Shown here piece by piece: positions 24,621-43,321 of a stretch of DNA of 46,231 bases. The first letter of the stretch is position 1. Every line of letters starts with the position of its first letter. The DNA is from a virus. Location of the stretch: positions 1 to 46,231 of IMG/VR virus record IMGVR_UViG_3300028829_002197, one strand, 5' to 3'. Below the pieces are notes generated by a model, which made no database searches, was not told the DNA's origin, and worked only from the letters and a program-made list of their open reading frames with translations. Both the position numbers and the translations under genes were made by a program.

Positions 24621-24649
24621 TTGACAAACCCCTTATAATATGAGATCAT
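24621..24649 (+). promoter_or_regulatory. Sigma70-like promoter before the metallopeptidase-VWA gene
   Basis: A perfect TTGACA at 24621-24626 has a 17-base spacer to GATCAT at 24644-24649 (4 of 6 matches, with the critical A2 and T6 kept). The -35 spot and distance fit the other early promoters in the window, but the -10 is weaker. A TATAAT at 24634-24639 is too close to serve with this -35. Confidence 0.55.
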
Positions 24650-24686: not shown

Positions 24687-26942
24687 ATGAATGATGTTGT
24701 GATGTTCACGAAGAATTCGAAAAGTCTTCTTGCTAAACTAATGGCAGAAGAAGACATTTCGGTTCAACACAAGAATATTGAGACTGCTTACTTTGATGTA
24801 AGAAATCGTGTTCTTGCCCTCCCTCTTTGGAAAGATATGTCTGGTACACTTTATGACCTTCTGGTAGGACATGAGGTGGGACATGCTTTATATACTCCTT
24901 CAGAAGAAGGCGTTTTAGAAAATGCAATTAAACGCTCTAACAAAGCGTTTGTTAATGTCATAGAAGATGCTCGAATTGAAAAATTGATGAAACGAAAGTT
25001 TCCTGGCTTGCGTTCATCTTTCTTCAAAGGTTATGATGAACTCCATGACAAAGACTTTTTCGGAATCCAACAATCCGATTTCGGTAATATGTCATTTATC
25101 GATAAAATCAATGTGTTCTTTAAGTATCCTTCGAACCAGTATGACCTAAAGGGTTACTTTACTGCAGAAGAACTTCCACTTCTAAAAATGGTTGCAGAAA
25201 CTGAAACATTTGCAGAAGTTGCTGATGTTGCAGAAAAAATCTTTAACTTCATTTCAGAAAAAGTAAAAGAAGAAAAAGAAAATCAGATGCAAAATTCTGT
25301 TGCACCATCTGATGCAGAAAAAAATCCAGATGCACAAAGTATTGATATTTCTTCTGATAGTTCTGAAGAGATTGAAGATACTGACGGTAGTGGTGATGCG
25401 GATCAACAAAAAAATTCAGAAAATGATAACGAAGGTTCTGAATCTTCTTCAGAAGAAAAAGTTTCTGCAAATGGTGATAATATAGAACCATCAGATAGTG
25501 AAGAAAAATCTACATCATCTACCAGTGGGAAAGAAGGTGGCTCTGGAATTAATGACAAAGAGTTTGCTTCTCAGACAGCAACCGACCTTGCAGATGCACT
25601 TAAAGAATTGATAGATCATGAAGCATCTATCACATATATTGATATTCCAAAATTCAATGCAAATAATTATATTACTCAATGGACAGAAGTGCGTGATGAT
25701 CTTGCAAAGAAGTTGAATATGAGTTTGATTACAACTGAAAAAATGAAGAACTACTGGACAAACTCATATACTAATCTTCTTGCAAAACATAACAAAACAA
25801 TTTCTTATCTTGTAAAAGAATTTGAAATGAAGAAATCTGCCGATGAGTATGCAAAAAGTTATATTGCAAAGTCTGGTAGTATCAACTCTAACAAACTTTG
25901 GAGTTTCCAGTTAAATGACGATATCTTTAAAAAGAAAAATGTCATTCCAGAAGGTAAAAACCATGGTATGGTTATGCTTGTTGACTGGTCAGGTTCTATG
26001 CATCGCCAGTTGATTAAGACGGTAGAACAAACAATCATTCTTGCAACGTTCTGTCGCCGTGTTGGAATTCCTTTTGAGGTTTACAACTTCAGTGATCAAA
26101 ATCGTTCTAAAGTTGACAAAAATGAAATTTTGGAATCCCTAGAAGTAGGTGAACATGTTTTGAGTCAAAATGTAAAACTTCATTGCATGTTGTCTCATAA
26201 AATGAAAAAGTCTGAATTCTATGAAGCATGTCGGCAATATATCAATCTTGCATATGCAAATGTATATCATATTTACAGTGTAACTTATGAACTAGATCAA
26301 TACCGTATGGGCGGAACGCCTCTTAATGATGCTTTGATTATTCTTGATAGAGTAGTAGATAAGTTTCGTAAAGAAAACTCAGTGCAGAAAATGAGTTTTG
26401 TAGTTCTGACAGATGGTGAGGCAGGAGATCATTTCCAATATATTGATGAAACTCCTGATGGAAAAAGGTGGATTTCTCATAAAGGATTTTCTTGGCACCG
26501 GACTCACAATTCTAGTACGGTTTTTGTGAAGGATAATAATACAGGAACATTCTTTTCATATGATACAAAAAAACATACTCAAACTGATGCATATTTGAAT
26601 TATATGAAAAATAAACATAAAGCCTCTTCTATTGGGTTTTATGTTGTGAATAAGATTGGAGACTTAAAATCTGCTATCTACAAGTACATGGGTAGGGATA
26701 CAGACTCGACTGATGTTTCAAAATACCTAAAAGAGTCTCGTACAAATGGTTTTTTGACAGCTACTAAGTGTGGATATGATGAATACTACATTCTTGATAT
26801 GCGTAACCAAGGTAGTGAAGATGAGTTGGAAGTTAGTGATGATATGACTAATGCAAAAATTGCAAAACAGTTTGCAAAATTCCAATCCAAGAAAAAAACC
26901 AGTCGCCAACTTTTAAATAAATTTGTCGATTTAGTGAAATAA
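24687..26942 (+). CDS. Metallopeptidase-VWA protein (CobT-like)
   Basis: A 751-residue protein with three parts. Near the N-terminus is an HEVGH zinc-peptidase motif (His62, Glu63, His66) with a possible third ligand in IEDARIE at 92-98. A long acidic, Ser-rich linker follows (about 190-300). The C-terminal von Willebrand A domain has a complete MIDAS: DWSGS at 433-437, GGTPLND and VVLTDGEAGD. Such proteins are often labelled CobT-like because of the VWA domain. The next gene is a MoxR/CobS-type AAA+ ATPase, the usual partner. A chaperone or protease-like role on virion or host targets fits better than cobalamin synthesis, but this is inference. Confidence 0.75.
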   Translation: MNDVVMFTKNSKSLLAKLMAEEDISVQHKNIETAYFDVRNRVLALPLWKDMSGTLYDLLVGHEVGHALYTPSEEGVLENAIKRSNKAFVNVIEDARIEKLMKRKFPGLRSSFFKGYDELHDKDFFGIQQSDFGNMSFIDKINVFFKYPSNQYDLKGYFTAEELPLLKMVAETETFAEVADVAEKIFNFISEKVKEEKENQMQNSVAPSDAEKNPDAQSIDISSDSSEEIEDTDGSGDADQQKNSENDNEGSESSSEEKVSANGDNIEPSDSEEKSTSSTSGKEGGSGINDKEFASQTATDLADALKELIDHEASITYIDIPKFNANNYITQWTEVRDDLAKKLNMSLITTEKMKNYWTNSYTNLLAKHNKTISYLVKEFEMKKSADEYAKSYIAKSGSINSNKLWSFQLNDDIFKKKNVIPEGKNHGMVMLVDWSGSMHRQLIKTVEQTIILATFCRRVGIPFEVYNFSDQNRSKVDKNEILESLEVGEHVLSQNVKLHCMLSHKMKKSEFYEACRQYINLAYANVYHIYSVTYELDQYRMGGTPLNDALIILDRVVDKFRKENSVQKMSFVVLTDGEAGDHFQYIDETPDGKRWISHKGFSWHRTHNSSTVFVKDNNTGTFFSYDTKKHTQTDAYLNYMKNKHKASSIGFYVVNKIGDLKSAIYKYMGRDTDSTDVSKYLKESRTNGFLTATKCGYDEYYILDMRNQGSEDELEVSDDMTNAKIAKQFAKFQSKKKTSRQLLNKFVDLVK

Positions 26943-26955
26943 TTGCCAAAAACTA

Positions 26956-26984
26956 TTGACAACCCTAGTAGTTTTTGGTATTAT
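26956..26984 (+). promoter_or_regulatory. Sigma70-like promoter before the MoxR/CobS-like gene
   Basis: TTGACA at 26956-26961, a 17-base spacer and TATTAT at 26979-26984 (11 of 12 consensus positions). The -10 and the bases after it (ATGTAC) repeat those of the gp55 promoter. Confidence 0.8.
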
Positions 26985-27031
26985 GTACTTGTAATGATGA
27001 TTTGTGAAACCTTCCCTGTGGAGAATATATA

Positions 27032-28174
27032 ATGTGGAATAAAGACAAAAAGGTAGAGTTCCTTTCAAAACTCCAAACCAAGTATGGCAATGTTGTTCGT
27101 AAAAAAGACATCCTTGCAGAGGCAGAAAATTTTGGTGAGGCAATCCCTCAATGGTTGTGTAAAACACAAAACCGCCAAGGACATGGTTCCTATAATGTAA
27201 TTAATGTGTTCAACATGCTTACGGGTAATGTTGTCCCTATTAAAAAAACAAAAGAGTCGGCGGTATCAATGCCAAAACGTGATACAGAATCATTGGTTCC
27301 AGAAAAAGATCCAAACTTTGTTAAGTTCGGATTCTACAATGATATGAAAAAGATTCTTTCATCAAAAATCTTTTATCCTGTTTTCATTACTGGACTTTCT
27401 GGAAACGGTAAAACCTATGGATCGCAACAGCTTTGTGCTCAACTGAAACGTGAATGTATTACGGTTCCAATTACTATCGAAACTGACGAATCAGATTTGC
27501 TGGGGGATAAAACCCTTGTTGATGGTAATGTTGTCTTCTCGCAAGGCCCTGTTGTTGATGCAATGGAACGAGGTGCAGTTCTTATTCTTGATGAAATTGA
27601 TCTTGCATCAAATAAGATTATGTGTCTACAGTCCATCATCGATGGTAAGGGAGTTTACCTAAAGAAAGATAATCGTATGGTTTATCCTGCGCCTGGATTT
27701 ACAGTGATTGCAACTGCAAACACAAAAGGTAAAGGTTCTGATGACGGACGGTTTATCGGTACTAATGTTCTGAACGAGGCATTCTTGGAACGATTCAAAA
27801 TTACCTTTGAACAGGAATATCCTACTCAATCAGTAGAGAAGAAAATTCTTATAAACCATCTTACTTCTTTTGGTAAGGTAGGTACAGAAGAAACAAAAAT
27901 CATCGAAGACCTTACTACTTGGGCTTCTGCGATTCGCCGAACCTTTGAAGAAGGTGGTATTGATGAGATTATTTCTACTCGCCGTCTAGTTCATATTGTC
28001 GAAACATATTCAATCTTTGGTGATGTGTTCAGGGCAGTAGAACTTTGTACAAATCGATTTGATGAAGATACAAAGTCATCGTTTGTTGACCTGTTCACTA
28101 AGATTAACGGTGGTGAAGATGTTATAAACATGGGAACTGGTGAAGATGAACTATTTAATGAGGAACCATTTTGA
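27032..28174 (+). CDS. cobS: MoxR/CobS-like AAA+ ATPase
   Basis: A 380-residue AAA+ protein. Walker A GLSGNGKT is at 121-128, Walker B AVLILDEIDLAS follows, and a sensor-type segment reads FTVIATANTKGKG. An N-terminal ~90-residue region precedes it. This is the protein family annotated as cobS in many marine myophages. With the VWA protein upstream it forms the ATPase-plus-VWA pair typical of MoxR systems, in which the ATPase ring remodels a target held by the VWA domain. The cobS label reflects homology; B12 synthesis by the phage is not shown by anything here. Confidence 0.8.
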   Translation: MWNKDKKVEFLSKLQTKYGNVVRKKDILAEAENFGEAIPQWLCKTQNRQGHGSYNVINVFNMLTGNVVPIKKTKESAVSMPKRDTESLVPEKDPNFVKFGFYNDMKKILSSKIFYPVFITGLSGNGKTYGSQQLCAQLKRECITVPITIETDESDLLGDKTLVDGNVVFSQGPVVDAMERGAVLILDEIDLASNKIMCLQSIIDGKGVYLKKDNRMVYPAPGFTVIATANTKGKGSDDGRFIGTNVLNEAFLERFKITFEQEYPTQSVEKKILINHLTSFGKVGTEETKIIEDLTTWASAIRRTFEEGGIDEIISTRRLVHIVETYSIFGDVFRAVELCTNRFDEDTKSSFVDLFTKINGGEDVINMGTGEDELFNEEPF

Positions 28175-31386: not shown

Positions 31387-31854
31387 ATGGTTAGTACAAG
31401 ATTAAGAAGTTTAGACCCATTTATGCGTTACAGTGTCGGGTTTGATAGATTGTTTAATGAACTTGAGGCAATGACTCAAGCAACAACGCAAAACTATCCC
31501 CCCTACAATGTAATCAAAGAAACAGATTCGAACTATCGTATCGAAATCGCAGTTTCTGGATTTTCGGAAGACGAACTTGAAGTAGAAATAAAAGAAAGTA
31601 TTCTACGAGTAAAAGGTTCTGTCCAAGAAAAACAAAATGATTCTGCATTCCTACATAGAGGTATTTCTGGAAAGGACTTTGAAAGAACCTTTACATTAAA
31701 TGCCGATATTGTTGTAATGGGTGCTGAATTAGTGAATGGATTGCTTGTTATTGAATTAGAACATGTAATCCCAGAAGAAAAGAAACCTCGCCGAATTGAT
31801 ATCGGTGGTTCTAAAACACTGCCGAATAAAAAGAAAAAATTCTTGGCAGAGTAA
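31387..31854 (+). CDS. Small heat-shock protein Hsp20
   Basis: A 155-residue IbpA-type chaperone. An N-terminal region starting RSLDPFMRYSVGFDRLFNEL is followed by an alpha-crystallin domain (YPPYNVIKETDSNYRIEIAV, GFSEDELEV, then FLHRGISGKDFERTFTL) and ends with a basic tail. It holds unfolding proteins and probably assists virion assembly or infection stress. Hsp20 genes are a hallmark of marine T4-like phages. It has its own leader and is followed by a strong hairpin, so it may be a separate transcript. Confidence 0.9.
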   Translation: MVSTRLRSLDPFMRYSVGFDRLFNELEAMTQATTQNYPPYNVIKETDSNYRIEIAVSGFSEDELEVEIKESILRVKGSVQEKQNDSAFLHRGISGKDFERTFTLNADIVVMGAELVNGLLVIELEHVIPEEKKPRRIDIGGSKTLPNKKKKFLAE

Positions 31855-41583: not shown

Positions 41584-42528
41584 ATGGATATAAAAAATAT
41601 AATCGAAAATCTTAGAAACGAAGATTCTTTAAATGAGGGGATCAACGACCCAGGCATATTTAAGGCGGTGTTTCTTGCTGGTGGGCCAGGTTCTGGTAAG
41701 TCTTTTATCGTAGGTAGAACTGCACTTACTTCTTTTGGAATGAGAGTTGTAAACTCTGACCCTGCATTTGAAAGGGCATTAGATAAGGCTGGTCTGGACA
41801 AAGGAAACCCAGACGATGTTTTCTCTGACCTTGGACAACAAGTAAGAGGTAAGGCAAAAGCACTTACTGCGATGCAACAGGCGGGATATGTGAAGGGTAG
41901 ACTTGGACTTGTTGTCGATGGTACTGGAAAAGATTATGACAAAATTAAAAAACAAAAGGACAAATTAGAGGCGATGGGTTATGAAACCGCCATGATTTTT
42001 GTCAATACCGATTTAGATACCGCATTAAACCGAAATAGATTAAGGGCGAGAAGTCTTCCAGACAATGAAGTTGAATCTATGTGGAAAGGTGTCCAAGGAA
42101 ACATTGGTAAATTCCAGTCTGCGTTTAAATCAAAAATGTTTGTAATCGATAACTCCGATGGTGCAGACTTCGAAAGAGATGTTATGAGAGCATATAGAAC
42201 TATTGGAACATGGGCAAAGAAGACCCCAACCAATAATGTCGCTAAAAAGTGGATTTCTGCGGAAAAGGCAGCTAGAGGAATTAAAGAAGAACTACTTAGA
42301 GAAGACGTAGAGTTTGCACAGGACAGTTTAGAGATGATGTTAAGACAACTCATTATTCTTTCTAATAAGTCTACAGAACTTGCAGAGTCACTTATGGAAG
42401 AAGTGGATAATCCACAAAATGACGAATATGAAATGGAGGCGTGGGTAGTTTCTAAAGTGACAAAGGCCAAGGATTACATTGACGCTGTTTATGATTATAG
42501 TATCATGGACGAAATGGATGATGACTAA
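41584..42528 (+). CDS. P-loop kinase (polynucleotide kinase / zeta-toxin-like)
   Basis: A 314-residue protein with Walker A GGPGSGKS at residues 33-40. NSDPAFERAL, a VVDGTGKDYDKI strand and an Arg-rich lid (RNRLRARSLPDNEV) follow, the layout of AAA_33-type small-molecule or 5'-end kinases. The first 20 residues are a separate helical leader (MDIKNIIENLRNEDSLNEG) with two L-x-E sequences that could be cut by gp21. The C-terminal ~100 residues are acidic. Its place between the ligase-like and HAD phosphatase genes suggests a joint role. Substrate unproven. Confidence 0.65.
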   Translation: MDIKNIIENLRNEDSLNEGINDPGIFKAVFLAGGPGSGKSFIVGRTALTSFGMRVVNSDPAFERALDKAGLDKGNPDDVFSDLGQQVRGKAKALTAMQQAGYVKGRLGLVVDGTGKDYDKIKKQKDKLEAMGYETAMIFVNTDLDTALNRNRLRARSLPDNEVESMWKGVQGNIGKFQSAFKSKMFVIDNSDGADFERDVMRAYRTIGTWAKKTPTNNVAKKWISAEKAARGIKEELLREDVEFAQDSLEMMLRQLIILSNKSTELAESLMEEVDNPQNDEYEMEAWVVSKVTKAKDYIDAVYDYSIMDEMDDD

Positions 42529-42821
42529 TGTTAGGATTTACTCAGTATCTTTCTGAAGGTATCAAACTTAAATTGATTCGTGGTAAAGGACAAGATGTTC
42601 TTAAAATGTGGGATACTAAGGAAAAGAGTTGGGTAGAACTAAGAGGAAAATCCGATTTTGAGCGAAGATACGATCCAAAAGATCCATTACACAAAGCAAT
42701 TGCTGCTCTTGGCAAGTCAGCTAATATTTCTGATTTTGTTAACGGAGATGAAGTCAGTATTAACCCGAACCACCCAGATGGTAAAAAGGCATTTAAAATA
42801 ATAAAAGGTTTGATGAAATGA
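42528..42821 (+). CDS. Small protein with capsid-targeting-like leader
   Basis: A 97-residue protein beginning MLGFTQYLSEG, close to the leader of the neighbouring genes, followed by a basic region and a helical C-terminus (HPDGKKAFKIIKGLMK). Cleavage after Glu10 would release a basic ~87-residue protein, similar in size to T4 internal proteins. It overlaps both neighbours by one to four bases. No family is recognised. The leader is the only functional hint. Confidence 0.55.
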   Translation: MLGFTQYLSEGIKLKLIRGKGQDVLKMWDTKEKSWVELRGKSDFERRYDPKDPLHKAIAALGKSANISDFVNGDEVSINPNHPDGKKAFKIIKGLMK

Positions 42822-43321
42822 AAACATTCAATCAATATATTCTTGAAAAAGAAATGCCAGAAATTTACTGCGATATGGATGAAGTCCTTTGTAATTTTAC
42901 AGGCGGATATACAGATACATTTAATAAAGACTTTGCATCAACTGATAAAGAAGAAAGATGGGAAGATATTAAATCCAAAAAAGATTTTTGGCATACCCTT
43001 CCATGGATGCCTGGTGCAGAAAAAATGTGGAGAATGTTAAACAAATATAATGCAAATATTTTATCTGCATATTCTAAGAGAGATTCAAACTCACAAAAAG
43101 GTAAAAGAACTTGGATTTCAAAAAATTTAAGATTGAACGGAAAGATACATCTGGTTCAAAGAGAAGATAAACAGAAATTTGCCACAACAAATGATAAACC
43201 GAATATTCTAATTGATGATTATCCTAAGAATATAAAAGAGTGGGAGGCAAAAGGTGGTATTGGTATTCGTCATATCAATCCAGCGAAGACTATGAGAGAA
43301 TTGGAGAAGTTATTGAAATGA
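42818..43321 (+). CDS. HAD-family phosphatase (5'(3')-deoxyribonucleotidase-like) with leader
   Basis: A 167-residue protein. After the leader MKTFNQYILEK comes a HAD motif I, CDMDEVLCNF (nucleophile Asp19, acid/base Asp21). Motif II is a Ser near 83 in ILSAYSK, motif III a Lys near 118, and motif IV IDDYPKNI with Asp133-Asp134. The pattern is that of NT5C-type nucleotidases, which remove phosphate from nucleoside monophosphates; T4 Pnkp uses a related fold as a 3'-phosphatase. Either a dNMP phosphatase or an end-healing phosphatase is possible. ATGA overlaps on both sides. Confidence 0.72.
   Translation: MKTFNQYILEKEMPEIYCDMDEVLCNFTGGYTDTFNKDFASTDKEERWEDIKSKKDFWHTLPWMPGAEKMWRMLNKYNANILSAYSKRDSNSQKGKRTWISKNLRLNGKIHLVQREDKQKFATTNDKPNILIDDYPKNIKEWEAKGGIGIRHINPAKTMRELEKLLK

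Follow-up and report, generated by a model that had tools for sequence, protein, structure and literature searches.

Among the closest described relatives of the genes analysed here, two readings have been published, and they are incompatible. Iyer et al. 2021 (PMC7824862) described a pair in jumbo phages as a MoxR-vWA chaperone with an N-terminal metallopeptidase and suggested a part in virion assembly, while Liu et al. 2021 (PMC8651126) regarded the annotation 'peptidase' in cyanophages as a mistake for CobT and argued for a cobalamin role. Our pair corresponds to phrog_459 plus phrog_249, which are already known from hundreds of T4-like cyanophages and pelagiphages. It has the domain order and the partner of the phage MoxR/metallopeptidase-vWA pair of Iyer et al. 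2021 and is a member of that group, from which it differs by sequence divergence and by no functional difference that we could see. Both the architecture and the peptidase annotation have thus been published before and are not new. What our study adds is evidence on the published disagreement, which favours an ATP-driven remodelling peptidase over B12 synthesis, and a plausible origin of CobT from a degenerate zincin.

An AAA+ ring with a VWA/MIDAS partner is common to this pair and to the MoxR-vWA assembly systems Midasin, NorQ-NorD, RavA-ViaA and CoxD-CoxE; we know of no N-terminal peptidase of the present type in any of the four. The cobaltochelatase CobS-CobT of Alphaproteobacteria and their relatives is likewise an AAA+ plus VWA pair, and its N-terminal domain and VWA appear to be distantly homologous to those of the phage pair through SSU5-like phage-plasmid proteins. 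In contrast to the phage protein, bacterial CobT possesses no HExxH motif (0/12), and CobS forms a clade separate from the T4-like ATPases.

Genomic setting and distribution of the pair

The window, i.e. the whole stretch of 46,231 nucleotides that was analysed, is a 46-kb IMG/VR record which may be a fragment of a genome. It belongs to a marine T4-like phage, recognised by genes for portal, head, tail sheath, UvsW and a late sigma factor; its replication genes include gp47/gp46 and those for sliding clamp, clamp loader, DNA polymerase and UvsX. The pair sits inside the replication/recombination block (gp47-gp46-pair-gp45-gp44), and both open reading frames were found where the preliminary description had placed them (24687-26942 and 27032-28174). 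The features of the locus are:

24621..24649, + strand: sigma70-like promoter-like site TTGACA-17-GATCAT before the peptidase-VWA gene; recurs in divergent relatives
24687..26942, + strand: P0001, metallopeptidase-VWA protein, 751 aa; phrog_459 'peptidase', E=5.6e-201, residues 6-750
24723..25298, + strand: predicted N-terminal zincin-like (minigluzincin-type) metallopeptidase domain, residues 13-204; AlphaFold2 (mean pLDDT 89.4) and Foldseek
24870..24884, + strand: HEVGH, residues 62-66, with predicted zinc ligands H62/H66 and predicted catalytic E63; invariant in 81/81, in predicted helix 53-69
24954..24974, + strand: NVIEDAR, residues 90-96; N90, E93, D94 and R96 in 81/81, in predicted helix 86-104
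25299..25553, + strand: disordered acidic/Ser-rich linker, residues 205-289; pLDDT below 50 over 205-288, 24 D/E and 20 S per 85 residues
25956..26696, + strand: VWA domain, approximately residues 424-670, assigned from the model; closest in the PDB to the Midasin MIDAS domain and NorD VWA
25983..25997, + strand: MIDAS motif DWSGS, residues 433-437; site completed by T544 and D576
26956..26984, + strand: sigma70-like promoter-like site TTGACA-17-TATTAT before the AAA+ gene; recurs in divergent relatives
27032..28174, + strand: P0002, MoxR/CobS-type AAA+ ATPase, 380 aa; AAA_5 E=1.8e-17, phrog_249 E=9e-113
27392..27415, + strand: Walker A GLSGNGKT, P0002 residues 121-128 (sequence motif)
27578..27595, + strand: Walker B VLILDE of P0002 (sequence motif)

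Immediately upstream of the pair lie two adjacent genes for N6/N4-type DNA methyltransferases (PF01555; 22629-23282 and 23279-24613). An Hsp20 gene (31387-31854) is found close to the replication block, and the pelagiphages HTVC008M and Mosig carry Hsp20 too (L144 6797-7243 and L083 9063-9512). Elsewhere in the window, a Zeta-toxin/AAA_33-type kinase-like protein (41584-42528) is encoded close to an NT5C-type nucleotidase (42818-43321).

With tblastn, 463 phage records matched the peptidase-VWA gene and 731 the AAA+ gene, with equal counts for both genes in Synechococcus (365), 'Cyanophage' (61) and Prochlorococcus (24) records. In most loci of the peptidase-VWA family an AAA+ gene of the P0002 family lies on the same strand, and in the window the MoxR-type AAA+ gene (phrog_249) is adjacent. 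Matches of the AAA+ gene in Staphylococcus phages were not counted as the same system, because the neighbour that was checked had no VWA motif. Identity of P0001 is about 86-93% to its five nearest IMG/VR loci and 31-48% to more distant aligned members. Ochrobactrum phage OC and P-TIM68 likewise have the order gp47-gp46-...-pair-...-gp45-gp44, and the portion from the pair to clamp and clamp loader recurs in Mosig and HTVC008M; a search of viral_contigs for relatives of OC and ICP2 found none. The preliminary description had stated that phage homologues are called cobT/cobS, which holds for the second gene, usually annotated cobS, but not for the first, mostly annotated 'peptidase' in cyanophages.

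Domains and conserved residues of the two proteins

The phrog_459 match covers P0001 over practically its full length (profile positions 1-735 of 736), and P0001 combines the N-terminal HExxH with a complete MIDAS, as a phrog_459-type pair requires. Besides DWSGS, the MIDAS elements are GGTP (542-545, with T544) and LTDG (574-577, with D576); HEVGH at residues 62-66 and the complete MIDAS were thus both correctly recognised in the preliminary description. HEVGH is the sole HExxH among the approximately 14,300 amino acids of the window's proteins, against 0.25 expected from composition. Stronger evidence against a chance occurrence comes from conservation: in a set of 81 sequences (80 IMG/VR relatives plus the window, with identities down to about 31%), H62, E63, H66, A67, T70, N90, E93, D94 and R96 are invariant, so that loss of the motif in close homologues, which had been named as contrary to a peptidase, is not seen. 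HExxH is also kept in 13 genome-contig relatives with a recovered ORF, and in phages HTVC008M, Mosig, P-TIM68 and OC. The 16 'genome' matches (L084-L099), found in MAGs, one Prochlorococcus genome and one 188-kb Nonlabens contig, are probably phage contigs within bacterial/archaeal assemblies, judged by match and contig sizes. E93, located on a glutamate helix, is probably the third zinc ligand, and with this downstream candidate P0001 has the predicted ligand pattern of gluzincin-type zincins.

The N-terminal 204 residues, modelled alone, are predicted to begin with a helix, followed by three strands, the HExxH helix (53-69) and the N90-R96 helix (86-104). All of the top ten Foldseek matches of this domain in the PDB are zincin-type metallopeptidases (chains of ArdC, selecase, jannalysin, abylysin and PprI), with probabilities of 0.23-0.98 and E-values of 0.1 or worse, no single match being significant. 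The zincin fold that had been proposed for this region is therefore likely as judged from the model, although no solved structure is more than weakly similar by itself (best E 0.1). Selecase, jannalysin, abylysin, ArdC and PprI, i.e. minigluzincins and ArdC-like zincins, resemble P0001 in the fold order predicted for it and in HExxH plus a downstream glutamate, but stand alone or are otherwise fused. In a viral structure library the domain matches proteins of phages and haloarchaeal viruses annotated CobT or VWFA; a PDB sequence search with A1 gave no useful match. The full-length model of P0001, built with 45 homologues, has a pLDDT of 75.6.

Whole-protein Foldseek results for P0001 are dominated by the VWA domain, whose best matches, Midasin and NorD, both partner AAA+ motors. 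The MIDAS residues D433, S435, S437 and T544 are found in 81/81 sequences and D576 in 80/81. The second protein, P0002, is an AAA+ ATPase as had been claimed: in addition to Walker A and B it has an ATAN sensor and an ERF arginine finger, and phmmer links it to Midasin and CobS structures. The invariant HExxH and the predicted zincin-like N-terminal fold are in line with the earlier suggestion of a metallopeptidase-VWA protein paired with a MoxR-type AAA+ protein, probably distinct from an ordinary cobaltochelatase.

Relation to CobT and CobS

The preliminary description had called the pair not clearly cobalamin-related. This is upheld for function but not for descent, in that P0001 appears to be distantly homologous to CobT and the ATPase is CobS-like. 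In Pfam, P0001 matches 0 families, PF11775 (CobT_C) has no match anywhere in the window, and PF06213 is matched by just 4 of 45 members of the P0001 family (best E 0.029). Comparison of full A1 with A2 yielded the VWA as its sole match (66%). A direct profile match between the T4-like N-terminal domain and bacterial CobT (hhalign 7.6%) is too weak by itself and was set aside, and an HMM comparison of the two reached one CobT at E 0.006 and brought no useful match to a second. Among the Foldseek matches listed there is neither of the solved CobT chains 9uka and 21vu, which the library may not contain. Since the direct match is too weak, homology between the T4-like proteins and CobT rests on intermediates.

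Such intermediates are the SSU5-like phage-plasmid proteins (phrog_1576, PF06213/PF11775), which link the phage and CobT families. They keep HEVAH and N..ED..IE and match the T4-like N-terminal domain (hhalign 96.9%); their VWA is of the CobT_C type (E=1.3e-82), unlike that of P0001. Their first 215 residues alone match Pfam CobT (E=1.2e-19). This Pfam signal may stem partly from viral sequences, because an HMM built from bacterial CobT alone picks up the SSU5-like proteins only weakly (11 bits). At the aligned motif position, SSU5-like and Rhizobium phage proteins have HEVAH, and CobT has SIALK or AAALQ. In the ATPase tree bacterial CobS forms one clade near the SSU5-like group and apart from the T4-like ATPases, a placement that is uncertain because several branches are long, and the HExxH label requires about three changes on this tree. 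Given the lack of HExxH in CobT and its apparent distant relation via phage-plasmid intermediates, CobT may be a relative without catalytic activity. We put at even odds the idea that an active metallopeptidase-VWA protein of the phage type was the ancestor of CobT, or that the two have a common ancestor; the N-terminal domain of CobT would then be a decayed zincin, and the active site would have been lost two to three times in the family.

HExxH has also been lost in phages: two clades of the wider family retain the pair and lack the motif, and remodelling is therefore possible without peptidase activity. They are the proteins of Nickievirus (SEISK; L140, L148-L152) and Stenotrophomonas phage BUCTxx99 (REVST; L141, L153), which fall in the same clade as the SSU5-like proteins. 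These CobT-like partner proteins may serve as natural test cases for a peptidase-free function. Together with bacterial CobT, these cases lend weight to a metal-binding or pseudo-enzymatic chaperone, in which the N-terminal domain would bind metal or substrate and the pair would remodel proteins or insert metal without cleavage; several MoxR-vWA systems serve cofactor or complex assembly (PMC7159879). For the T4-like pair we nonetheless judge this quite improbable, as the invariance of E63 in 81/81 members would be unexpected if metal binding were all that mattered.

Liu et al. 2021 offer another possibility, namely that the pair acts as a cobaltochelatase CobST that borrows CobN from the host and raises cobalamin output. 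Such borrowing is possible for cyanobacterial hosts, CobN-family genes being present in a Prochlorococcus genome, and it would fit the likeness of P0002 to CobS structures and the distant relation of the N-terminal domain to CobT. P0002 does match TIGR01650, the CobS equivalog (E=7.5e-23), but its 81.2 bits lie below the cut-off of 558.55 bits; the CobT Pfam domains are absent from P0001, and all 12 bacterial CobT proteins are without the HExxH that P0001 keeps. Of 32 bacterial genomes that encode CobT, 27 have a CobN-family gene; none of eight complete related phage genomes carrying the pair has CobN. Two of these eight, the pelagiphages HTVC008M and Mosig, infect SAR11, which is reported to be without MetE, MetH and MtgBCDE (PMC12478193). 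The missing CobT domains, the missing CobN and the SAR11 hosts all weaken cobalamin synthesis as the main function, and we consider it very improbable. In Caulobacter vibrioides, CobT (PF06213) is matched and CobN (PF02514) is not; bacterial CobT without a detected CobN may thus exist.

Timing and function of the pair

Each gene had been credited with its own sigma70-like promoter and the pair with early and strong expression. Sigma70-like sequences are indeed conserved before both genes; 'early and strongly' was an inference. A scan of the whole window says little by itself, because the number of sites equals that in shuffles (49 vs 48.5). TTGACA-17-TA...T is, however, kept before both genes in divergent relatives, and sites scoring at least 10/12 are found upstream of the peptidase gene at 37% of loci (3.5% in shuffles) and upstream of the AAA+ gene at 53% (4.3% in shuffles), where the shuffles preserve single-base composition only and the compared loci are related. 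Among about 48 window ORFs tested, just five attain 10/12, the two pair genes included. Of the 17 structural-block ORFs, 8 are preceded at 16-49 bp by the T4-late-type motif NATAAATA, which stands before neither pair gene. Neither gene is named in the published transcriptomes found in our literature search. On account of the replication block, the sigma70-like sequences and the lack of the late motif, the pair is probably synthesised before late virion assembly.

The same three observations speak against a virion-assembly machine, i.e. a MoxR-vWA chaperone whose peptidase would process structural proteins during maturation. This function has been proposed for the same architecture in group 2.2 jumbo phages, with the MoxR-vWA tail assembly of the archaeal virus ATV as a precedent (PMC7824862), and early synthesis would be compatible with a late role; for the present pair we regard it as unlikely.

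The explanation that we prefer, with a probability of about 0.58, is that in T4-like phages the two proteins work together as a protein-remodelling peptidase which is driven by ATP and acts before late assembly. The ring of the MoxR/CobS-type ATPase (27032-28174) would dock the VWA domain of its partner, whose MIDAS site would seize a target protein by an acidic element. The captured target would be pulled or remodelled through ATP hydrolysis, and its cleavage would fall to the tethered N-terminal gluzincin-type domain (H62/E63/H66, probably E93). The targets of such a machine in the early/middle phase of infection may come from host or phage. Our literature search found no demonstration of proteolysis by any member of the family. 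A role in conflict, also considered in the preliminary description, gained no support: PADLOC matched neither P0001 nor P0002 to a known defence-system protein.

The pair occurs in hundreds of marine phages sequenced so far, and the usual annotation of its ATPase gene, cobS, points to vitamin B12. Should the pair be a remodelling peptidase, claims about B12 metabolism in viruses that are based on it would be misleading. The conserved E63 offers a one-residue discrimination between the peptidase and the CobT readings. If the likely link to CobT is true as well, the cobaltochelatase would gain an unexpected origin.
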